Of a stretch of DNA of 35,414 nt, positions 121 to 15,330 are shown piece by piece; position 1 is the stretch's first letter, and each line of letters opens with the position of its first letter. Under the pieces are notes generated by a model. The model ran no database searches and had not been told where the DNA came from. It saw only the letters and a program-made list of their open reading frames with translations. The position numbers and the translations under genes were made by a program. Origin of the DNA: a virus; the IMG/VR virus record IMGVR_UViG_3300017730_000036, positions 1 to 35,414 of that record; one strand, given 5' to 3'.

Positions 121-1242
121 ATGATTAAGACAGGTGTTTTAAGTAAACCCGTAAAAAGGGTGTGGGTATTAGGCGATCTTCATTTTGGAGTTAGGTCTAA
201 TTCAATGGAATGGTTACAGATTCAGAAAGATTTTTTTGAAGAAGTATTCATTCCTAATTTAAAGAAACACGTGAAGCCAGGAGATGTTTTGGTACAGGTA
301 GGCGATACGTTTGATAACCGCCAGAGTATAAACATCAAAGTTTTAAATTATGCCATGGATTTATTCGAGAGGCTAGGTGAAATATTACCAGTCCATGTAA
401 TTTGTGGAAATCATGATATTTGGGCTAAGAAAACAAATGAAATTACTTCAATTGATACTCTTAAATGGATCCCAAATGTACAAGTTTATACAGATCCTAT
501 TGAATATGTTTGGAATGATAGAAAGATATTGTTAATGCCATGGAGAAGAGATTCAGCACATGAAGCTGAAACATTAGCAGACTATCCACAGAGTGAAATT
601 GTATTTTGCCATTCAGAAGTTAGAGGTATTTACTTAAATTCAAAAGTAAAAAATCAACATGGTAATGAGACAAATATCTACTCAAAATATACAAGAGTTT
701 ATAGTGGCCACATTCACTTTAGACAAGAGAAAGATAAATTGTTAATGGTAGGAGTTCCTTATGAATTAACAAGATCAGATATGAATAATCAAAAAGGATA
801 CGATCTTGTAGACTTAAAAGATATGAAAGAAACATTCTTTCCAAATAATCATTCTCCAAGATTCTTAAGGTATAATATAAAAATGTTATATGATATGCCA
901 TTAGAAAACTTTAAGGCACAGATTAAAAATAATTTTGTAGATTTATATGTACCTTCTGAAATTGCAACATCGTCTGCGCTTTCTAATTTAATTAATAAGG
1001 TACAAAAGATTGGAAGAAGGATTGAGCCAAACATTTATCAAGAAGATAACTTTATAGACAAAGACTTATATGACTTAGATGAGATAGAAGAAATGCAAAA
1101 GAGCTATAGTGTTATGGGACTTTGTGAAAAGTATGTAGAATCTTCAACATTTGATAAAAAGCTTAAGAAACAAATTAAAGATAAATTAAATCAACTTTAT
1201 AATAGTTGTGTAAATAATTACGATTTAAACGATGAAAATTAA
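121..1242 (+). CDS. 47: gp47-like SbcD/Mre11 nuclease subunit of the recombination complex
   Basis: Predicted calcineurin-like metallophosphoesterase that pairs with gp46 to resect DNA ends during recombination-dependent replication. Metal-binding motifs lie in the expected order: GDLHFG (18-23), GDTFDNR (61-67), GNHDIW (96-101), CHSE (163-166) and GHIH (196-199). Its 373 residues are slightly longer than T4 gp47 (about 340). The ATG follows the upstream stop with no gap, and the 3' end overlaps the gp46-like gene by 11 bases, so the two are probably translationally coupled. The family call is from motifs and from the paired ATPase; it is secure. Confidence 0.93.
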   Translation: MIKTGVLSKPVKRVWVLGDLHFGVRSNSMEWLQIQKDFFEEVFIPNLKKHVKPGDVLVQVGDTFDNRQSINIKVLNYAMDLFERLGEILPVHVICGNHDIWAKKTNEITSIDTLKWIPNVQVYTDPIEYVWNDRKILLMPWRRDSAHEAETLADYPQSEIVFCHSEVRGIYLNSKVKNQHGNETNIYSKYTRVYSGHIHFRQEKDKLLMVGVPYELTRSDMNNQKGYDLVDLKDMKETFFPNNHSPRFLRYNIKMLYDMPLENFKAQIKNNFVDLYVPSEIATSSALSNLINKVQKIGRRIEPNIYQEDNFIDKDLYDLDEIEEMQKSYSVMGLCEKYVESSTFDKKLKKQIKDKLNQLYNSCVNNYDLNDEN

Positions 1243-2902
1243 TAGCATAGAATTTAAGAATTTTGCAAGTTATGGTAATCAAGCTCAAAAAATAGAGTTT
1301 GAAGATCAAGCACAATTGTATTTAACATTAGGTAAAAACGGACATGGAAAAACTACAATTGCAAATAGTATTATATATGCACTATATGGTAAGGTTGAAG
1401 GTGTAAAACTTGCTGACTTGCCAAATAGAATTAATAAAGAATTGTGGGTTAAAATAAACTTACAATGCAAGCATATGAATGTTGAAATCGAAAGAGGGTT
1501 AATGCCAAATCGATTTAAGGTTTTAATTAATGGCGTAGAGTTTGATAAAGCAGGTAAAAAATCTGTACAAGAATATTTAGAAGATGAGATATTTGGAATA
1601 CCATATCATGTATTTAAAAACATTATTATTTTAAGTATCAATGACTTTAAGTCTTTTTTAACAATGAACAATCATGATAAAAAACAAATTATTGATAGAA
1701 TGTTTGGTTTTTCAGTTTTAAATGATATGTTTAAGAATGTTAAAGAAGAGCGTAAGCAAATTAAAATGGAAATAGACTCTTATGATTCTGAACTTAATCA
1801 GATTATGGAATCAATTTCTTCAGTTAGACTTAAACTAAATAATCTTGTTGAAGAGTCTCATAAAAAAGATAAAGAAAAGGTTGAAGCATTAAAGGATGAG
1901 CTATTAGATCATGGAGATAATGTTAAAAAATTAAACGAAGCAAGAAGTACAATAGATGGTAAAATACAAACTATAAATGATAAAGCAGGTAGCATGGGTA
2001 TTCAGCAGCGAGATCTTGAACGAGAGAATCAATACCTACAGAAAAAAATTGAATTGTACGAATCCGGCTTTTGTGGCTCATGTGAAACAAAGCTAGATAC
2101 AGATTGGCACCATAAAAAAGGAGATGAGTTTAAGACGCAGATTGAAAGCAATAATGAAAACTCTGGCAAATTAAAAGAAGATATTACAAAAGCTGAAGAA
2201 AAAGTAGGAGACTTAAGAAGTAAAAGAAAACAAGTTGAAACAAGAATTAACAACTTAAGATATTCTATTAAAGACATTAAAGATGAATTAATTAAAATTA
2301 AAGAGTCTACTCAAGACGAAAATCAATTTCAACACTTAAAACAAATTATTGCAGAGTTTGAAAAGTCAGAAGGACAAAAGTCAGGGAAGAGAGAAGAGAT
2401 AGCACAACAAGATGCATTTATGACGATCTTAGAAGAAGTCTTAGGAGATGATGGTGTAAAGAATCTTGCAGTACAAACAATATTACCAGGCTTAAATGCT
2501 AATATTGCAATGATGGCTCAAACAATGCACCTTCCATTTCATATTAGATTTGATGATAAGTTTGATTGTATTATTAATCACTTAGGAGAAGATATAAATC
2601 CTCTAACACTTTCAACAGGTGAAAGAAAGAAGGCAGATTTTATAGTTATTATTGCTATTATTAAAATATTAAAACTAAGGTTTCCACAGCTTAACCTTAT
2701 GTTTTTAGATGAGTTGTTAAGTTCAGTCGATCAAGATGGAGTCTATAATGTACTTAAAATTCTTAATGAAGTAATTAAAGAAAATGGACTAAATACGTTT
2801 GTTATTAATCACACTGAATTGCCGCATGAGATCTTTGATCAGAAAATACAAATTCACAGAGAGAATGGATTCTCAAAATTTACTATTGAAAAAATTGAGT
2901 GA
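1232..2902 (+). CDS. 46: gp46-like SbcC/Rad50 ATPase subunit of the recombination complex
   Basis: Predicted SMC-like ATPase that works with gp47 on double-strand ends. The Walker A motif GKNGHGKT is at residues 34-41. Long charged coiled-coil arms flank a CxxC zinc hook (CGSC, near residue 282). An ABC signature LSTGERKKAD lies near 460, a Walker B LMFLDE with its D-loop near 490-500, and an H-loop-like NHTELP near the end. Length of 556 residues equals T4 gp46 (560). It overlaps gene 47 by 11 bases. The order 47-46 is as in T4, but the next gene is a tail gene rather than a replication gene. Confidence 0.93.
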   Translation: MKINSIEFKNFASYGNQAQKIEFEDQAQLYLTLGKNGHGKTTIANSIIYALYGKVEGVKLADLPNRINKELWVKINLQCKHMNVEIERGLMPNRFKVLINGVEFDKAGKKSVQEYLEDEIFGIPYHVFKNIIILSINDFKSFLTMNNHDKKQIIDRMFGFSVLNDMFKNVKEERKQIKMEIDSYDSELNQIMESISSVRLKLNNLVEESHKKDKEKVEALKDELLDHGDNVKKLNEARSTIDGKIQTINDKAGSMGIQQRDLERENQYLQKKIELYESGFCGSCETKLDTDWHHKKGDEFKTQIESNNENSGKLKEDITKAEEKVGDLRSKRKQVETRINNLRYSIKDIKDELIKIKESTQDENQFQHLKQIIAEFEKSEGQKSGKREEIAQQDAFMTILEEVLGDDGVKNLAVQTILPGLNANIAMMAQTMHLPFHIRFDDKFDCIINHLGEDINPLTLSTGERKKADFIVIIAIIKILKLRFPQLNLMFLDELLSSVDQDGVYNVLKILNEVIKENGLNTFVINHTELPHEIFDQKIQIHRENGFSKFTIEKIE

Positions 2903-2910
2903 TATATAAT
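2901..2910 (+). promoter_or_regulatory. Candidate late promoter element, GATATATAAT
   Basis: One of ten matches to GATATATA or GAATATATA seen before virion genes. It overlaps the stop codon of gene 46 and ends only two bases before the ATG of the gp15-like gene, so any transcript starting here would be nearly leaderless. It is among the weaker members on spacing. Confidence 0.3.
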
Positions 2911-2912
2911 AA

Positions 2913-3686
2913 ATGGCAACATATAACTTAAAATACAATAGAGACGACAGTGTTATTAGACACCTTATAGTAGGCCTCTTAGCTGACTTAAATAAAAAGG
3001 TTAGTTTTTATAGACAGCTTGATACCAATACTCGTACAGAAATAGATGTTCCTTTTTATTATTCAATTACAGGAGATGAAAATTTTTTAAAAGATAACTT
3101 TCTTTTTTCAACAGCAAATGGCTTTGAATGTAGTCCAAATCCAGTTGGAGCAGATGGTAATTATGATGTAGTACCAAGAGGAGTTGTTAATCTTACATCA
3201 ATGACAGTTGATCCAGCTCGTTTAGTAAATAAAAGAAATATCGGAGAATACAGTAAAATGAATGACCAAGGTCTTTTAGAGGGTTACAGGGCCGAGTTTG
3301 AAATGATTCCGATGACATTTTCAGTAGATATAGAAATATTAGTGAGTAGTCTCTTAGACATATTTAAGTGTACTGAACAGCTAATAAAAAAATTATATAA
3401 GTCTAATCAATACAATGTTGAGGTTGGACATTTAGATGAAGGACTATACAGATTAGCTGCTTATTATGCGATGCCAGACGATTATGGTAAAGAAAACCCT
3501 ATTGAATATACCTTTGACGATAAGGGTAATTATAAAATAACATTTAGTATTGATATAAATTCATCTATGCCAGCTATAGATTTTGATACAGAGAGACATG
3601 TTGGAAACAGAATGTTTAAATTGACTCATAATATAGAAGATGGTAAAACGACTAACGAAACTATTGACCAAGGCTTAGATATATAA
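2913..3686 (+). CDS. 15: gp15-like tail sheath stabiliser / tail terminator
   Basis: Predicted tail-completion protein that caps the sheath and tube and joins the tail to the neck. No short catalytic motif exists for this family. The assignment rests on overall pattern: an N-terminal helix plus RQL strand, a (V/I)PxxY strand (VPFYYS), and a central block NKRNIGEYSKM then YRAEFEMIPMTFSVDIEI with a following amphipathic helix. This parallels the remembered central part of T4 gp15 and its cyanophage relatives. Length of 257 residues compares with 272 in T4. It follows gene 46 after 10 bases, an unusual place for a tail gene. Another tail or neck structural role remains possible. Confidence 0.6.
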   Translation: MATYNLKYNRDDSVIRHLIVGLLADLNKKVSFYRQLDTNTRTEIDVPFYYSITGDENFLKDNFLFSTANGFECSPNPVGADGNYDVVPRGVVNLTSMTVDPARLVNKRNIGEYSKMNDQGLLEGYRAEFEMIPMTFSVDIEILVSSLLDIFKCTEQLIKKLYKSNQYNVEVGHLDEGLYRLAAYYAMPDDYGKENPIEYTFDDKGNYKITFSIDINSSMPAIDFDTERHVGNRMFKLTHNIEDGKTTNETIDQGLDI

Positions 3687-3687
3687 T
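3678..3687 (+). promoter_or_regulatory. Candidate late promoter element, GATATATAAT
   Basis: The element overlaps the stop of the gp15-like gene and lies 41 bases before the ATG at 3719. A second TATATAAAAA follows at about 3691. Spacing fits a late promoter for the acidic coiled-coil protein. Confidence 0.4.
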
Positions 3688-3718
3688 TAATATATAAAAA
3701 TAAACAAATACATTAAAA

Positions 3719-5146
3719 ATGGCACAAGTTACAAAACAAATTATATCACCTGTATTCGTTACTGAATCAGGAGATAGTTATATTGCATTAGATGGCAAAG
3801 CATTTTTAGTTGGTGAAAATACAATTACTGAAGCAGAAATTACTACAGCTCCTGGTGAGTTTAGAAGTCTTGTTTTAGCATTAAACAATTTTACATTAAC
3901 TAATGAAGGTTTAATATGGTTTAATGGAATTAATAGAATTAGATTCGTAAAAGAATCAAACAACTTTTTCGTTAACAATAGCGAGGTTTTAGCTGAAAGT
4001 TTAACAAATCACTTATTAGCATCAGGTATTGTAAATTACACAAACAAAACAAAAATTCAACTTTTTGAATATGCTGCACAAAATATTAACAATTTCGTAT
4101 CTCTTGATTTTGCTCAAAAAATAGAAGAAGGTAACGTTAAGTGTTATGTTATGAAATTAAACGAAGACTTCTTTGTTTATAGAATGAATGAAGCAAATAA
4201 GATTTATAAGTTTGGTAAATTAGATGCAAATGCTGCATTTGATTATGTTAAAGAGCAAACAGGTTATGAAATAACTGATATGACTCAAGAACTTTTAGAA
4301 GGTGCAAGAAAAGAAGCTGCTGAAAAATTAGAGAAAATTAATTTATTAGAGCAAATGATAGCATTCTTAAAAGATCAAAGAGGAGTTATTGCTGAAGCTG
4401 ACAAATCAATTCAAGAAATTAAAGAAGCTGATACACTAATCAATAGTGAAATTAAAAGATTAGAAGAAGAGGTTGAAGCTATTAAAAACGGTACTGAAAA
4501 AGTAGACGAAGGTTGTGGAAAATGTGGAACAGACGGATGTGTTTGTGAAACTGAAGCTACAACTGAAGAAACTGAAACTGAAGCTACAGCTGAAGAAACT
4601 GAAGCTACAACTGAAGAAACTGAAGCTACAACTGAAGAAACTGAAACAGAAGCTACTAACGAAGAAGCTGGAGATGAGGCAGGTGTTGAAGCTGAAGATA
4701 TTAAAGCTGATCATACTGAAGTTGATAGCGATGAGAAAAGAGAAGCTAAATCTGAAGAAGCAGATGATTCTGCACCAAGCGACGAAGGAGAAGACGGAGC
4801 TAAAGAAGTTGCTGAAGCTGAAGTAACTGAAGATGATGCTGAAGATATTGAAGATGCTGAAGCTGAAATGGGAGAACCTGAAAAATCTGAAGAAGATCAA
4901 GAAAAACTAGAAGCTCCTATGGATGAGGCCGATGTTGAAGAAGAATTAGTAACTAGACAAGATGGTTATGTACCAGGAACTCTTAAATACGAAACTGATG
5001 ATTTTGCAGAAGGTACAGAAATTCAAATAGATGCTGAAGCATATACAACTTCTGGACAAGATGAATCAATTACAGTATTCGTAAATGAAAAGCCATTAAA
5101 GGTAAATAAAAGAGACGTTGAATTAGCTGACGGCGAAACAGTATAA
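3719..5146 (+). CDS. Acidic coiled-coil protein, probable prohead core or virion component
   Basis: No family recognised. Residues 1-190 form a mixed alpha/beta region; 190-265 are a charged coiled coil. A cysteine cluster CGKCGTDGCVC follows, then a Glu/Thr-rich tract built from EATTEETE-type units, a very acidic Asp/Glu region, and a short folded-looking C-terminus. About 33 residues beginning AGVEAEDIKADHTEVD are nearly the same as a block in the protease-scaffold fusion (27 of 33 identical by eye). The acidic composition, the shared block and the position next to a protein with a capsid-targeting-like sequence suggest a role in head assembly. That role is inference. The gene is clearly real: it has a clean ATG and an A-rich leader. 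Confidence 0.75.
   Translation: MAQVTKQIISPVFVTESGDSYIALDGKAFLVGENTITEAEITTAPGEFRSLVLALNNFTLTNEGLIWFNGINRIRFVKESNNFFVNNSEVLAESLTNHLLASGIVNYTNKTKIQLFEYAAQNINNFVSLDFAQKIEEGNVKCYVMKLNEDFFVYRMNEANKIYKFGKLDANAAFDYVKEQTGYEITDMTQELLEGARKEAAEKLEKINLLEQMIAFLKDQRGVIAEADKSIQEIKEADTLINSEIKRLEEEVEAIKNGTEKVDEGCGKCGTDGCVCETEATTEETETEATAEETEATTEETEATTEETETEATNEEAGDEAGVEAEDIKADHTEVDSDEKREAKSEEADDSAPSDEGEDGAKEVAEAEVTEDDAEDIEDAEAEMGEPEKSEEDQEKLEAPMDEADVEEELVTRQDGYVPGTLKYETDDFAEGTEIQIDAEAYTTSGQDESITVFVNEKPLKVNKRDVELADGETV
4553..4657 (+). repeat. In-frame acidic repeat tract (EATTEETE type)
   Basis: About 105 bases of imperfect direct repeats of GAAGCTACAACTGAAGAAAC type, coding for alternating Glu, Thr and Ala. 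Length variation by slippage is likely between related phages. The long apparent frames in other registers and on the opposite strand here are by-products of this composition. Confidence 0.8.
4679..4776 (+). repeat. Copy 1 of a 98-base block shared with 10661-10758
   Basis: Ungapped match to 10661-10758 with roughly 16 mismatches by eye. It encodes the same acidic block, with core EDIKADHTEVD, in two otherwise unrelated proteins. Similarity at both DNA and protein level points to duplication or gene conversion between the two genes. Confidence 0.85.
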
Positions 5147-5164
5147 AAAATTAAATATTTAAAC

Positions 5165-5488
5165 ATGAAACGCATTAAACTATTTGAAGACTTTATACAG
5201 CTTAATGAGGCATTTAAGGTAGGTGATTATATAAAACACACAGAAAAATCACCAAGTAGAACCGTATTTGGTAAAATTGTAAAAGCAAATAAAAAATCTG
5301 CTTCAATTGTAATTTTAGGATCAGGTGGTGCAAATGATAAACAACCAACTACTAGAATGGAAACATGGGAAGGCGGAAAGTACGTAGACTTTGGAAAACA
5401 TTCTAAAAAAGAACTAGATGATATAGCTAAAAAACTTTCACCAGGTGATGGTTATAAGTACGTTGACATGGAAACATGGAACGTTTAG
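5165..5488 (+). CDS. Small predicted internal head protein with capsid-targeting-like N-terminus
   Basis: A 107-residue protein of unknown function. The N-terminus MKRIKLFEDFIQLNE followed by A matches the pattern of T4 internal proteins (MKTYQEFIAE then cleavage): a short basic amphipathic peptide ending in L-x-E, the consensus for the prohead protease, with predicted cut after E15. The remainder is small and basic with beta character (KVGDYIKH, KIVKANKKSASIVILGSG), possibly an SH3-like barrel. It lies 18 bases after the acidic coiled-coil gene and before a terminator, so it ends that transcript. Packaging into the head and delivery with DNA is inference from the N-terminal peptide. Confidence 0.7.
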   Translation: MKRIKLFEDFIQLNEAFKVGDYIKHTEKSPSRTVFGKIVKANKKSASIVILGSGGANDKQPTTRMETWEGGKYVDFGKHSKKELDDIAKKLSPGDGYKYVDMETWNV

Positions 5489-5609
5489 TAAAAAATTAAA
5501 TAAAATTTGACGTTAAACTACAAATCTCTCATTTAACTCAAATACAGTAGAAAAAGATCAATTGGAAACAATTGATCTTTTTTTTATATAATATCTATAA
5601 ATTTAAAAG
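5489..5609 (+). other. Intergenic region holding a terminator and the gene 55 leader
   Basis: The 121 bases contain no gene. A strong terminator sits at 5551-5585. Immediately after it, AT-rich sequence including TATATAATATCTATAAATT precedes the gp55-like start and could hold its promoter. A TTGACG at about 5507 has no convincing -10 partner. Confidence 0.6.
5551..5585 (+). terminator. Rho-independent terminator after the first gene block
   Basis: A 14-base stem AAAAAGATCAATTG (5551-5564) pairs with CAATTGATCTTTTT (5569-5582) around a GAAA tetraloop and runs into T residues to 5585. It is a textbook hairpin with U-tract, separating the 47-46-15 block from the head block. Confidence 0.9.
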
Positions 5610-5993
5610 ATGCCAAGAAAAAAGAATTATTTAAACAATAAAGACTTATATGCACAAATTGTACAATCATTGGATGATGATAGACTAACAAGAGATGCAG
5701 AGAAAATGTTACAGTTACTTGCTGAGAAAGCAATTAATAGATTAACTTATGTAAATGAAGATGATAGAAAAGATTGTTTGCAATTCGCTCTATTAGATTT
5801 ATTAAAATATTGGAGAAACTTTAACCCTAAATATACAAACGCATTTGCATACTTTACGGAGATAGCAAAAAGAGGTTACGCAAAGGGTTGGAATAAACTT
5901 CACCCAAATAAAACAAAGGGAACTATCTCAATGGATAGAATAAATTCTGCAAACTCAAGAGAAGACGGTGGCGGCGGAATGTTTAATATCTAA
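5610..5993 (+). CDS. 55: gp55-like late-transcription sigma factor
   Basis: Predicted phage sigma factor that redirects host RNA polymerase to late promoters. The N-terminal NYLNNKDLYAQIV resembles the YVNNKELLQAII start of T4 gp55. A sigma region-2-like block follows: DCLQFALLDLLKYWRNFNPK, then NAFAYFTEIAKRGYAKGWNK at about residues 70-98. At 127 residues it is clearly shorter than T4 gp55 (185); the C-terminal tail, which in T4 carries the sliding-clamp-binding end, is reduced to a glycine-rich DGGGGMFNI. It opens the head block just after a terminator. No separate gp33 co-activator was recognised in the window. Confidence 0.8.
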   Translation: MPRKKNYLNNKDLYAQIVQSLDDDRLTRDAEKMLQLLAEKAINRLTYVNEDDRKDCLQFALLDLLKYWRNFNPKYTNAFAYFTEIAKRGYAKGWNKLHPNKTKGTISMDRINSANSREDGGGGMFNI

Positions 5994-8714: not shown

Positions 8715-9002
8715 GTGTTAAAAAAATACAATGAATTTTTAAATGAAAGAGCAGCTCCTAATAAAGCTACAGTAAAGTATATGATAGCTAAAAAATTTGC
8801 AGGAGTGCCTGTCAAAATAGCAAAACAGCTTATTAGACATAATAAAAGAAAGGAAGATATTGCAGCAATGATTAAAACAGCTGAGACTAGGGAAGAAAAG
8901 GCTAGATTAAAAAGGCAATTGTTATTAATGAGTAAAAAGGAATTTGAATTAAAGAAAAAGGCTCAACTAGCAAAGAAAAAGGCTAAAGCTGACAAAAAAT
9001 AA
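8715..9002 (+). CDS. Small basic prohead core protein with capsid-targeting-like N-terminus
   Basis: A 95-residue lysine-rich helical protein. The GTG start at 8715 is chosen because the overlapping ATG at 8713 stops at once (ATGTGTTAA), and because GTG gives the N-terminus MLKKYNEFLNE, which has the T4 capsid-targeting pattern with an L-N-E protease site (cut after E11). The rest is alternating Lys/Glu/Ala helix ending in KKAKADKK. It lies between portal and protease, where T4 has core genes 67 and 68, so it is a probable positional analogue. The sequence itself is not recognisably gp67 or gp68. Confidence 0.8.
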   Translation: MLKKYNEFLNERAAPNKATVKYMIAKKFAGVPVKIAKQLIRHNKRKEDIAAMIKTAETREEKARLKRQLLLMSKKEFELKKKAQLAKKKAKADKK

Positions 9003-9020: not shown

Positions 9021-9374
9021 ATGATACTTAAAACATATAACGAATTTTTAAACGAAGCCCAATTGTCTTCTATTAAAGCAGGTGACGATAGTAAAGTTGA
9101 AGTTAGTGATCAAAAAACAGTTGACGGAGATGTTATCTCTGCTCAAGAAATTTTAGGACAAATATTAAACGCTGAAACAGAAGATGAGTTTAAAGCTTAT
9201 TTTTATGAAAAATATGGTTCTACTAAATTTGACACAGCAACAATGGGACAAATGTTAACAGACTATCAAGACTATTATGCTGAACAAGCTGAAAAGGAAA
9301 AGGAAGCTGAAAAGGAAGAAGAACCTACAGACGATGGCGAAGGAGCCGGCGATGATTTAGATATTGATATTTAA
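9021..9374 (+). CDS. Small acidic prohead core protein with capsid-targeting-like N-terminus
   Basis: A 117-residue protein starting MILKTYNEFLNE then A, nearly the same leader peptide as the preceding gene, with predicted protease cut after E12. The middle holds QEILGQILNAETEDEFKAYF and the last 35 residues are strongly acidic (EKEEEPTDDGEGAGDDLDIDI type). T4 gp67, in the same map position, is also a small core protein with an acidic tail, so this is a likely functional analogue. The pairing of one basic and one acidic core protein side by side is notable. Confidence 0.8.
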   Translation: MILKTYNEFLNEAQLSSIKAGDDSKVEVSDQKTVDGDVISAQEILGQILNAETEDEFKAYFYEKYGSTKFDTATMGQMLTDYQDYYAEQAEKEKEAEKEEEPTDDGEGAGDDLDIDI

Positions 9375-11403: not shown

Positions 11404-12813
11404 ATGGCAAATTTAATAAATGAAGCTGAAATCAGAGAAACGTGGTCTCCAATTATCGAGAGCGCTACTGGTATCAATGATGCTTCAAAATTAGCATGGA
11501 TGTCTGAGTACTGTCATAATCACAAACTTTATGAAGACGCAAACATCATGTCACTTTCCAACAATCCAGGTCCTATGAATATCGGTGGTATAGGTGCAGT
11601 TGCACTTCCATCTGATTTTGGTGGTATCGGTACTGCAGGTACTGCAAATGGTTCAGGTGACAAAGCTCCAACTTTACTTCCTTTAGCGATGCAAGTTGCA
11701 GCACAAACAATCGGTTTAGATTTAGTTCCAGTTGTACCAATGGCTGGTCCTATGGGTCTTTTATCTTACTTAGACTTCGTATACGAAGGTGGTAGATTAG
11801 ACAACGCTGAAGCTCCATTATACATCAAAACAGCTAATGCAGCTGCAGGTAACGATGTATTAGCAGGTACTTCAAGAATCGATGGTAAAAACATCTTAAG
11901 AATTGAAGACGAGATAGATACACAAGGTGGTGAAACTTCTATCGCATCTAGATATGCGGATGCAGAATTAGTTGCTGCATTAGAAGATCATATCCCAGGA
12001 TTCGTAGGTCAATCAAGTGGTCAACCATTTGACAGAGCTACAGGTGAATCTACGGCTGACAATTTAATGGGTCTTTCTTTATTCTCTAAAGCAATTGAAG
12101 CAAAAACTTACCAAGTTGCTGCTGCAGTTACTAGAGAACAAGTTCAAGATTTAAAACAATTCGGCGTTGATGCTGTTGCTCAAGTTGAGGCAGTTTTAAC
12201 TAACGAATTAACACAAACTATTAATGATTTAATCATTGACGAGATCTCAACTTTAGCAAGCGCAAACATGACTGCTTCTGGTGTTTCTTTAGACGTTGAT
12301 TTAACTACTCCAGCTGCGGGTGGTCAAACTGAAGGTTCTGAACACAGAAAAGTATTAACAGGTATTTTAGCTGCTGCTAACTTAATTGCAAACAGAGGTA
12401 GAAGAGGTGCAGGTAACTACGCGGTTGTAGGACCACAAGTTGCTACATTAATTCAATCTGTTGCTGGTTTCGTACCTAACCCATTCGCTAACACTGCTAC
12501 TCAAGCTGCTGGTGCTATTTACCCAGTTGGTTCTGTTGCAGGTGTACAAGTATATACAAACCCAAAATGGGCTTGGTCATACAACACTATATTAGTTGGT
12601 AGAAAAGGTGACGGTAACGGTCCAGGTCTTGTATTTATGCCTTACTTAATGGCTGAATCAGTACAAACAATTGCTGAAGGAACTATGGCTCCTAAAGTAG
12701 CTGTTAAATCTAGATTTGCATTAGTTGCTGCAGGTTTCCACCCTGAAACGCAATATGCATCTTTAGACGTTAAAGTTAACGGTTCTACTGGTGATATGAT
12801 TAACATAGCTTAA
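11404..12813 (+). CDS. 23: gp23 major capsid protein
   Basis: Main shell protein of the T4-type head. The N-terminal NEAEIRETWSPIIE resembles the W-x-P-L-L-E start of T4 gp23. Family blocks follow: LVPVVPMAGPMGLLSYLDFVY near 110-130, EAKTYQVAAAVTREQVQDLKQ near 237, the RRGAGNYAVVGPQVATLIQ block near 338, and KSRFALVAAGFHPETQYASL near the C-terminus. Length is 469 residues against 521 in T4. An (L/I)-x-E site at KLYE-D (cut after E44) is a plausible maturation site. Codons ending in C (AAC, TTC, ATC, TAC) are commoner here than in neighbours, as expected for a highly expressed gene. It ends just before a strong terminator. Confidence 0.95.
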   Translation: MANLINEAEIRETWSPIIESATGINDASKLAWMSEYCHNHKLYEDANIMSLSNNPGPMNIGGIGAVALPSDFGGIGTAGTANGSGDKAPTLLPLAMQVAAQTIGLDLVPVVPMAGPMGLLSYLDFVYEGGRLDNAEAPLYIKTANAAAGNDVLAGTSRIDGKNILRIEDEIDTQGGETSIASRYADAELVAALEDHIPGFVGQSSGQPFDRATGESTADNLMGLSLFSKAIEAKTYQVAAAVTREQVQDLKQFGVDAVAQVEAVLTNELTQTINDLIIDEISTLASANMTASGVSLDVDLTTPAAGGQTEGSEHRKVLTGILAAANLIANRGRRGAGNYAVVGPQVATLIQSVAGFVPNPFANTATQAAGAIYPVGSVAGVQVYTNPKWAWSYNTILVGRKGDGNGPGLVFMPYLMAESVQTIAEGTMAPKVAVKSRFALVAAGFHPETQYASLDVKVNGSTGDMINIA

Positions 12814-12840: not shown

Positions 12841-12872
12841 AAGGGATTCTTAGAAATAGGAATCCCTTTTTT
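12841..12872 (+). terminator. Rho-independent terminator after the major capsid gene
   Basis: Stem AAGGGATTC (12841-12849) pairs with GAATCCCTT (12860-12868) around a 10-base loop and is followed by T residues. It ends the head block 27 bases after the gp23 stop. Confidence 0.88.
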
Positions 12873-12911: not shown

Positions 12912-14654
12912 ATGAAAATCAAAACCAAAATAAAGGCAATTAATGAATTTATTATTGAAAACGTGGAGACACCAGACAGTGGTAAAGTAAATAAAAATAT
13001 TGAGGCTAACATTTCTTCAAGTGAAGATTTAAGACAAGAGATAGATACCATTTTAAATAAATTACAAAAACTAGAAGTCGGTTTAAATGGCAGCATGTTT
13101 CAAAATGGAAACAATCCTATAAAGGAATCTATTGAAAATGATTTATCCATCGACAATGATTTAATATTAGAATTTACAGCATCTTATAATAAAGGACTTG
13201 AAAAAGGTCAAAAGGTAGGAGCAGTTATAGGTCTAATTGCAGTCATTACATTTTTAAAAGTTAGAGCTAATCGTAGAATTAAAAAGAAACAAGCTGCTTA
13301 TACAAAATATGCTCCTGAAAAGGCAAAACTTGAAATTGATGAAAAATATTCAGATCAGCAATTCGCAGCATCGTTTGATAGAGAAGAATTTATTGAAAAA
13401 GAATCAGAAGGTTTAAAGAAAAAGTACGATAAAAAAATATCTAAATTAGATCCAACAAATCCAAAGTCTAAAAAGGTTGCACAAAAATTAAGAGCTGATA
13501 GAGATGAAAAGCTTTTAAAACTTAGAGATGTCCTTATTTCTAAAATAATAGCCAAGGAAACTAGCTTAAAGGAGGAAATAAAAAGAAAGATTGAGGATTT
13601 AGATATACAATGGAAAAGAGACGACGCAGATACTAACATAATGAGTGTTTTTGCAAAATTTGCAAATAACCCAGCAGGTAGTGAAATGCAAAGAAAATGG
13701 GAAGATTGGAAACTTGAATTTGATAGAAAGGTAGAAGATAAAGCGTTTGAGTATGAAAGAAAATTACTAGATAAATCTGTAGGAGTAGATAACGAAAAAC
13801 TTAAAGAAGAATTAGAAGAATTAGACTCTAGAATTAAAAAATTTAAAACTCAACATGCTCAAAAGGTTAAAATTGCTAAAGCAGCTAAGGCACAGGTAGA
13901 TCAAGATGTTAAGGATTTTGAGGCGAAAGAAGGCGCAAAGGAAGAGGCAAAAGAAAAAAAGTTAGGTCCAAGTTATATAAAGGCTAAACAAAAATACAAT
14001 GAATATATGGAGTCTGTTAATAAATTCGGACAAGCCCTTTCGTTTGCTGAAAAAAATACAAGTGGATCAGAAGCAGGAAATGCAAAAACAAATTTACAAA
14101 AGGCTTACAAAACAATGAGAATGCGAAGTAATTTTAGTAAGGCTAATGCACAGGAATTAATGCCAAATGGTACCACTAAAGATTATAGCGCCCTTCTAAA
14201 AGAAAGACAAGATCAGCTTGATGATTTTAAAAAGGCATATAATACAACAATGGCTAAGTTTAAGCCAGTTACTGCTTCAAATTCTAATTTAGAAATAAAA
14301 GATGGAATGTATCTCACTGAAAAATTAGAAATATATGAACAGTTTATGGAAAGATCTAAGATGTCAAAATACATTAGAGACTTAGGTCAGAAAATGAAAG
14401 ATTTTTTTAAGGCGGTAGGTTCTGAAAGTAAAGAAACTAAAGCAGCCGTTAGTTTAGTTTATCAAGCAAGTAAAGATGGTAGAAAACTAACAGACGATGA
14501 AAAGAAAATGGTAAAGGAACAATTAAAGGATGTTTTAAAAACAATAGGACTTAGTTCAATAGCTATAATGCCTGGCGGTTTTATAGTTGCTGTCTTAATA
14601 AATGCTTTAAAGTTAAATGACAAAATAGTTCCTTCTAGTTTTAAGAAAAAGTAG
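12912..14654 (+). CDS. Large predicted internal head protein with membrane segment and LETM1-like tail
   Basis: A 580-residue basic protein. It begins MKIKTKIKAINEFIIE then N, a capsid-targeting-like peptide with an I-I-E protease site (cut after E16). A hydrophobic stretch VGAVIGLIAVITFLKV (102-117) is the only clear membrane segment in the first half. Residues 120-450 are long Lys/Glu coiled coil. The end has LTDDEKKMVKEQLKDVLK, then GLSSIAIMPGGFIVAVLI and VPSSFKKK. The PGG...(L/V)PSSF arrangement resembles the hydrophobic segment of LETM1-type membrane proteins; this is remembered similarity, not a search. The gene follows gp23 with its own candidate late promoter. A protein packed in the head and delivered with DNA into the host membrane is the favoured inference; a purely structural core protein is the alternative. 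Confidence 0.65.
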   Translation: MKIKTKIKAINEFIIENVETPDSGKVNKNIEANISSSEDLRQEIDTILNKLQKLEVGLNGSMFQNGNNPIKESIENDLSIDNDLILEFTASYNKGLEKGQKVGAVIGLIAVITFLKVRANRRIKKKQAAYTKYAPEKAKLEIDEKYSDQQFAASFDREEFIEKESEGLKKKYDKKISKLDPTNPKSKKVAQKLRADRDEKLLKLRDVLISKIIAKETSLKEEIKRKIEDLDIQWKRDDADTNIMSVFAKFANNPAGSEMQRKWEDWKLEFDRKVEDKAFEYERKLLDKSVGVDNEKLKEELEELDSRIKKFKTQHAQKVKIAKAAKAQVDQDVKDFEAKEGAKEEAKEKKLGPSYIKAKQKYNEYMESVNKFGQALSFAEKNTSGSEAGNAKTNLQKAYKTMRMRSNFSKANAQELMPNGTTKDYSALLKERQDQLDDFKKAYNTTMAKFKPVTASNSNLEIKDGMYLTEKLEIYEQFMERSKMSKYIRDLGQKMKDFFKAVGSESKETKAAVSLVYQASKDGRKLTDDEKKMVKEQLKDVLKTIGLSSIAIMPGGFIVAVLINALKLNDKIVPSSFKKK

Positions 14655-14715: not shown

Positions 14716-15330
14716 ATGAAAAAGACAATAATTACAGGAATACTGTTTTTAGCAATTGTTTCAATTTCTGCACAAGAAAAAGGAACTAAAAACACTAAAC
14801 CTATTAAATATACAAAAGGAACTAATAGTTCTGTTATAGTTGAAAAAGAAGTTAAGACTGAAAAAACTACACCAGTATCTATTAGACCTACAAGCAGTAA
14901 CTCAACGAATAGAGCTGCTGTGAATTCTACTAACTCTAAAGAAGTTAACACAATGAGACCAGAAAAGGTTAAAGTTAACACTAACAGAGCAGCACAGAAT
15001 TCTAAAGAAACAATGAGACCAGAGAAAGTTAAAGTTAACACTAATAGAGCTGCTCAAACATCTGTTGAAACAAACAGACCAGAGAAAGTTAAAGTTAATA
15101 ATGAAAGAAATTCTATTAACAAGGAAGAAAAACCTTTAAAAGAAGAATTTAATAAATTATCAGTTGACTATTGCAAAGGCTGGAAAGAAGGTTATATTAA
15201 AGCTTGGTCAAAGGCTCACAAAGGTGAAAAACTAGAGTTTGTTCCAAACTGCGAAACTACAGGTAACTGTGAAGGTTACAAATGTGGTTTTAAAGCAGGT
15301 ATGAAGCAAGCTGAATTAAATATAAGATAA
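14716..15330 (+). CDS. Secreted repeat protein with signal peptide
   Basis: A 204-residue protein of unknown function. It begins with a clear Sec signal peptide: MKKT, a hydrophobic core IITGILFLAIVS, and a likely signal peptidase I cut after SISA before Q20. Residues 79 onward contain two full and one partial 20-residue repeat around RPEKVKVNTNRAAQ, a low-complexity basic linker. The C-terminal 55 residues look folded: CKGWKEGYIKAWSKAHKGEK, then three more cysteines around NCETTGNCEGYKCGFKAGM, suggesting disulphides. It should act in the periplasm or at the cell surface of the infected host. Superinfection exclusion, lysis or a virion role cannot be told apart from sequence. Confidence 0.8.
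   Translation: MKKTIITGILFLAIVSISAQEKGTKNTKPIKYTKGTNSSVIVEKEVKTEKTTPVSIRPTSSNSTNRAAVNSTNSKEVNTMRPEKVKVNTNRAAQNSKETMRPEKVKVNTNRAAQTSVETNRPEKVKVNNERNSINKEEKPLKEEFNKLSVDYCKGWKEGYIKAWSKAHKGEKLEFVPNCETTGNCEGYKCGFKAGMKQAELNIR
14950..15108 (+). repeat. 60-base tandem repeats in the secreted protein gene
   Basis: Units start at 14950, 15010 and 15070; the third is partial. Each begins ACAATGAGACCAGA or a close variant and encodes T-(M/N)-RPEKVKVN. Copy number is likely to vary between relatives. Confidence 0.9.

Follow-up and report, generated by a model that had tools for sequence, protein, structure and literature searches.

A 580-residue protein, encoded directly behind the gp23-like major capsid gene of a marine T4-like phage, is proposed here, at roughly even confidence, to be packed into the phage head and probably ejected, with a LETM1-like C-terminal piece that would anchor it in the inner membrane of the host. 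At the level of sequence, its gene is a fusion of a post-capsid protein with a formerly separate LETM1-like protein, each bringing its own capsid-targeting signal (CTS).

The post-capsid gene and its capsid-targeting start

The sequence studied, hereafter the window, is a stretch of 35,414 nt (IMG/VR record IMGVR_UViG_3300017730_000036, positions 1 to 35,414) that profile searches identify as a fragment of a T4-like phage. Its + strand encodes, in order, SbcCD-like gp47/gp46, a gp55-like sigma factor, gp4, gp2, the gp20 portal, the gp21 protease, the gp23 capsid protein, and gp44. The 580-aa gene (12912..14654, on the + strand like all of its features below) is the next gene after that of the gp23-like major capsid protein (11404..12813, + strand; PF07068 E 7.8e-45), an orthologous position in about 70 contigs. 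A terminator-like hairpin (12841..12868, + strand; one found versus 0.0 expected) lies between the two, and a scan for T4 late promoters (TATAAATA) returned matches at chance level. The first-pass annotation had described the open reading frame, its length of 580 residues and its C-terminal motif exactly. In direct searches, the protein as a whole had no Pfam match and no PHROG family at E 0.1, and PDB sequence and fold searches returned unspecific coiled coils only. Phage holin LLH (PF09682) was rejected as an identity for the protein, scoring 18.9 bits against a Pfam cut-off of 24.9.

The protein begins with a CTS-like start (residues 1-16; 12912..12959), I10-x-x-F13-I14-x-E16, in the register of T4 IPIII. 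In T4, IPIII owes its packing to its first 10 residues, of which residues 4 and 7 are important for targeting; a 10-residue CTS suffices for protein packing and delivery, and gp21 cleaves after L/I-x-E (PMC9026906). The 580-aa protein carries a candidate site of this type (IIE at 14-16), and cleavage after E16 is a reasonable inference. It shares with T4 IPI, IPII, IPIII and Alt the N-terminal register (aromatic or hydrophobic-x-x-F-I/L/V-x-E), and with the T4 internal proteins the head-gene setting and a gp21-type protease on the same contig (9422..11317, + strand; PF03420 E 5.3e-11, phrog_207 E 2.7e-44). It differs from those internal proteins in its predicted membrane segments, its LETM1-like module, a second, buried CTS and a far larger size, and its packing is predicted. 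The CTS, the gene's position and the protease support packing into the head, much as the first-pass annotation had supposed in reading the gene as an internal-head-protein type with a capsid-targeting-like start.

Such starts are enriched across this virus group. A loose CTS pattern occurs in 113 of 978 genes, where shuffled sequences would give 33 and residues 31-56 give 24, and a strict motif, scored over 996 genes, occurs 3.7 times per 1000 positions at N-termini versus 0.86 elsewhere. Three further small proteins of the window (5165-5488, 8715-9002 and 9021-9374) also have CTS-like starts, reading MKRIKLFEDFIQLNE, LKKYNEFLNE and MILKTYNEFLNEAQ, respectively; the latter two, in exact T4 register, lie between the portal and protease genes, in the places of gp67/gp68.

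The post-capsid position was compared across 80 contigs that carry related capsid genes. Where the contig continues, almost all encode one protein 75-160 bp behind the capsid gene, and in about 70 contigs this same downstream partner is present without the LETM1 piece. These proteins are very variable in length (about 270-870 aa) and share a common plan: a CTS-like start, a variable linker, a conserved D-I/V-D-T-I-L/M..L..L helix, and a charged helical region. The 580-aa protein belongs to this family, as it lies 75-160 bp behind the gp23-like gene, carries the CTS, which is conserved through the family, and aligns at the conserved helix (residues 38-60; 13023..13091); an N-terminal family profile built without the window matches it at E 1.8e-6. 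Beyond the helix, an early hydrophobic segment with a basic run behind it (residues 102-120; 13215..13271) corresponds to the membrane segment first placed at 102-117. The segment is real and of weak, marginal membrane strength (Kyte-Doolittle 1.72), and the stronger stretch at 545-563, which is itself the LETM1 motif, had not been listed as a membrane segment. A strong early segment, often glycine-rich and near residue 40-120, is found in 18 of the 46 nonredundant proteins of the family. The 330 residues of coiled coil noted from the sequence are borne out by a long helical, coiled-coil-like region (residues 115-450; 13254..14261; AlphaFold2 pLDDT about 80-90), and the model breaks down at 452-506, which fits a module border there.

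Other genes around the head cluster are of separate interest. The gp21-like protease is 631 aa long with a C-terminal extension of about 400 residues and is probably a scaffold fusion; a comparable gene in Tenacibaculum phage PTm1 carries the annotation scaffolding protein and protease. Immediately beyond the head genes of the window, 14716-15330 encodes a protein with a flavobacterial-looking secretion signal (MKKTIITGILFLAIVSISAQ), a hint that this phage protein is exported and that the host belongs to the Bacteroidota. The host of this T4-like phage is probably a member of the Bacteroidota. In six of the related contigs (L007, L008, L010, L014, L064 and L068), a glycosyltransferase-like gene (MIPKIIHQIWIG..) adjoins the post-capsid gene.

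The LETM1-like C-terminal module

The last part of the protein (residues 489-580; 14376..14651) is a LETM1-like module, and its resemblance to LETM1 is, as judged from sequence statistics, supported homology rather than chance. NCBIfam NF040639 matches residues 470-578 in a whole-protein search (E 3.3e-8, 33.3 bits), the C-terminal 87 aa alone match it at E 1.2e-10, and hhalign pairs the module with the bacterial LETM1-related family at 98%; the LETM1-like C-terminus proposed from the sequence is thus upheld by the profile comparison suggested with it. Directly against Pfam LETM1 (PF07766), the 580-aa protein falls below the cut-off (E 0.065 in one search, 12.4 bits in another). For four NF040639-type bacterial proteins, the Pfam LETM1_RBD score is about 32-36 bits and exceeds the cut-off, at positions 1-53 of 229. 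A bacteria-only profile was also run, drawing on 80 flavobacterial LETM1-related proteins that were retrieved with an approximate 56-residue query and confirmed by their NF040639 and PF07766 scores. Over 2483 phage ORFs, this profile matches LETM1-like ORFs only, namely the window gene, its two orthologues and a 122-aa gene of phage LR756501.

Within the module, a predicted membrane segment with a central PGG (residues 545-566; 14544..14609) rests on hydrophobicity and a low-confidence model. Its hydrophobic core at 545-563 is the strongest in the protein (Kyte-Doolittle 2.23), a value reached by shuffled copies of the protein in 6 of 2000 cases. PSSF follows (residues 574-577; 14631..14642), its P, S and F invariant in module alignment A7. 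With NF040639, the LETM1-related biofilm-associated protein of Flavobacteriia, the module shares the C-terminal 75-110 residues or so, the PGG segment and the PS[SA]F end; the roughly 290-residue N-terminal part of that family is absent here, and the 33.3 bits compare with an equivalog cut-off of 250. With LETM1 / Mdm38 (PF07766), the likeness covers the first 53 or so profile positions, that is, an amphipathic helix, the membrane segment and PSxF. Because the match is confined to LETM1_RBD positions 1-53, the shared piece is the membrane anchor and not the ribosome-binding domain, which is absent; the protein ends three residues past PSSF.

These differences bear on the suggestion, made with the first description of the gene, that the protein alters host ion balance on entry. 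A LETM1-like cation/proton exchanger would be in keeping with the homology to the LETM1 membrane segment and with the exchange activity observed for purified LETM1, which has one membrane helix (PMC5037442). However, Glu221 of mouse LETM1 is needed for calcium flux (PMC5037442), and the phage segment has no D or E in residues 545-566; only about 53 of the 229 LETM1 positions are represented, without the ribosome-binding domain, and whether LETM1 acts as a transporter is itself a matter of dispute (PMC9724676). We therefore consider an exchanger very improbable. It is also rather unlikely that the hydrophobic stretches are buried in a protein assembly in the head without contacting any membrane, in which case the LETM1-like piece would be no more than a folded helical module. 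Such a reading agrees with the biological hydrophobicity sums, which do not strongly favour insertion, and with the low confidence (pLDDT 55) of the structure model of the module (helix-break-helix); against it, the bacterial and mitochondrial relatives of the module serve LETM1-type proteins as their membrane anchor, and its PGG-PSxF core is conserved.

Fusion history and spread among phages

The module occurs in only three of the post-capsid proteins retrieved: that of the window and those of contigs L001 and L005. In each, it is preceded by a buried second CTS (LTEKLEIYEQFMERSK in the window, residues 468-483; 14313..14360) that is homologous to the N-terminus of free LETM1-like proteins. 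The signal reads LEIYEQFMERSK in the window, YNSFMNES in L001 and YGEFMNES in L005, and its register (YxxFMNE) is exact in the latter two. Free LETM1-like genes with their own CTS exist in other T4-like contigs: L256, L255 and L201 (115 aa each), L105, L102 and L262 (125 aa), L232 (125 aa) and L239 (112 aa). In the first three, the free gene lies between two genes that we take, by position and size, to be gp16-like and gp17-like, and L256 has a separate, ordinary post-capsid gene of 285 aa without the module. Residues 471-577 of the window protein and 3-106 of the L256 protein align from the CTS onward, with 43% identity, and the free L232 protein is likewise 43% identical. Since these alignments are collinear from the CTS, the three buried motifs represent the former start signal of a free protein.

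In a tree of the module, the three fused copies form one group (100/99) whose closest neighbours, at weak support (81/56), are the free L256 and L240 proteins, while the bacterial LETM1-related proteins form their own clade (99/98) with the phage modules outside. Together with the presence of free and fused genes in relatives, this tree indicates that a free CTS-LETM1 gene was joined to a post-capsid gene, a history that, like the wide occurrence of the module in phages, the first-pass annotation had not recognised. A sequencing artefact was rejected as the source, as three different contigs carry the fusion, and an internal translation start at Met466 was set aside, the codon being ATG in the window and L001 and GTA in L005.

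Two other contigs show further arrangements of CTS genes. In L020 (6615-8622), the post-capsid protein ends ..KTIKLSKKLNEYSKFKIKQ, resembling a truncated second CTS. A module remnant was looked for after this gene and was not found; a few bases downstream begins the gene of a CTS protein of 198 aa, which has a hydrophobic segment of its own and is not detectably LETM1-like. In L232, the free LETM1-like gene closes a run of CTS genes. The six ahead of it (441-5621; 116-336 aa) almost all start MK[RKH][IVL]KLFEEF(L/V).E, and the run is an apparent operon of capsid-targeted proteins.

Beyond the post-capsid family, IMG/VR was scanned for the module core with a degenerate DNA motif that leaves out the N-terminus. 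The scan yielded at least 80 loci and at least about 70 LETM1-like phage ORFs that match the module profile. Three architectures appear among the matches listed: free proteins of about 100-180 aa, cytidyltransferase-like proteins of 330-1220 aa (phrog_395), and Polbeta-type nucleotidyltransferase proteins of about 450 aa (phrog_36119). Among the same listed matches, CTS-like starts are ten times as frequent on LETM1-like ORFs as on the remaining genes of their contigs. A strict T4-register CTS, taken from published T4 positions, is found on 6 of 35 LETM1-like ORFs versus 10 of 639 other genes of the same contigs (p 7e-5); a relaxed pattern, drawn up after examples had been seen, gives 12 of 35 versus 31 of 639 (p 3e-7). 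Four free modules (L189, L192, L200 and L204) have no recognisable CTS. Across 50,697 named phage records, tblastn of the module found only a 735-kb uncultured phage (LR756501/LR756503); matches in Lactococcus and Vibrio phages were dismissed as chance. Polbeta-type proteins with the module include those of L190, L191 and relatives (about 450-630 aa), and cyanophages such as S-CRM01 and Lak phages match the nucleotidyltransferase part only.

This distribution bears on the main rival to a delivered protein, a role in head assembly, so ranked because prohead formation in T4 begins at the inner membrane, to which the portal is bound (PMC9958956). The 580-aa protein could belong to the prohead core, use its membrane parts to hold the growing prohead at the inner membrane during assembly, and be degraded or lost before infection. 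Its gene does lie in the head cluster, its long helical core is like that of scaffold proteins, and T4 core proteins processed by gp21 can end degraded and lost rather than ejected (PMC9026906). Most post-capsid relatives, however, have no LETM1 module, and a strong early hydrophobic segment is missing from 28 of 46, so membrane tethering would be no general need of assembly. The module is also found in large nucleotidyltransferase-type fusions, which are cargo-like rather than scaffold-like. We regard the assembly role as unlikely, though a serious competitor, and favour cargo, as the relatives manage without the module and it sits on large nucleotidyltransferase-like proteins.

Proposed role and significance

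For a delivered cargo protein, we envisage the following sequence of events. The N-terminal CTS would bring the 580-aa protein into the prohead core, where the gp21-like protease would trim it after the CTS and perhaps also at the buried second CTS. Cleavage after FMNE is a reasonable inference for L001 and L005; in the window it may fail, since the site reads FMER. The protein or its pieces would then leave with the DNA, and the LETM1-like module would insert as a single bent membrane segment, tethering the protein to the host inner membrane. There, it may either assist DNA entry or hold an effector at the membrane. Ejection and insertion are suggested by analogy with the behaviour of T4 CTS proteins and with the relatives of the module. 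More broadly, and tentatively, the module may serve many phage lineages as a general cassette for anchoring delivered proteins in membranes. It would fix ejected proteins in the inner membrane of the host right after entry, and it would be traded among small stand-alone CTS proteins, proteins of the nucleotidyltransferase type and core proteins.

No paper on LETM1-like phage proteins was found in the literature searched, in line with the earlier remark that no T4 internal protein of this type is described. In UniProt, the remark needs amending, as one uncultured-phage protein, A0A6J5N8A7, is automatically named 'LETM1-like', and a LETM1 domain in phages is therefore already on record as a label. 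That protein has the same module (35% identity over 112 columns) and differs in being 449 aa long, the size of the Polbeta-type nucleotidyltransferase fusions (phrog_36119), and in not being post-capsid. The spread of the module, its link to capsid-targeting signals and the post-capsid fusion appear to be new.

To our knowledge, the passage of DNA and proteins across the inner membrane in T4-like phages, and the roles of many internal proteins in it, are still poorly known. A membrane module that recurs on CTS-bearing phage proteins is a concrete, testable candidate for such an inner-membrane role, and it offers a sequence handle for finding these proteins in metagenomes. With a free gene and a fused gene in related phages, its fusion history is clear, and it brings the LETM1 membrane anchor, familiar mainly from mitochondria, into the viruses of bacteria.
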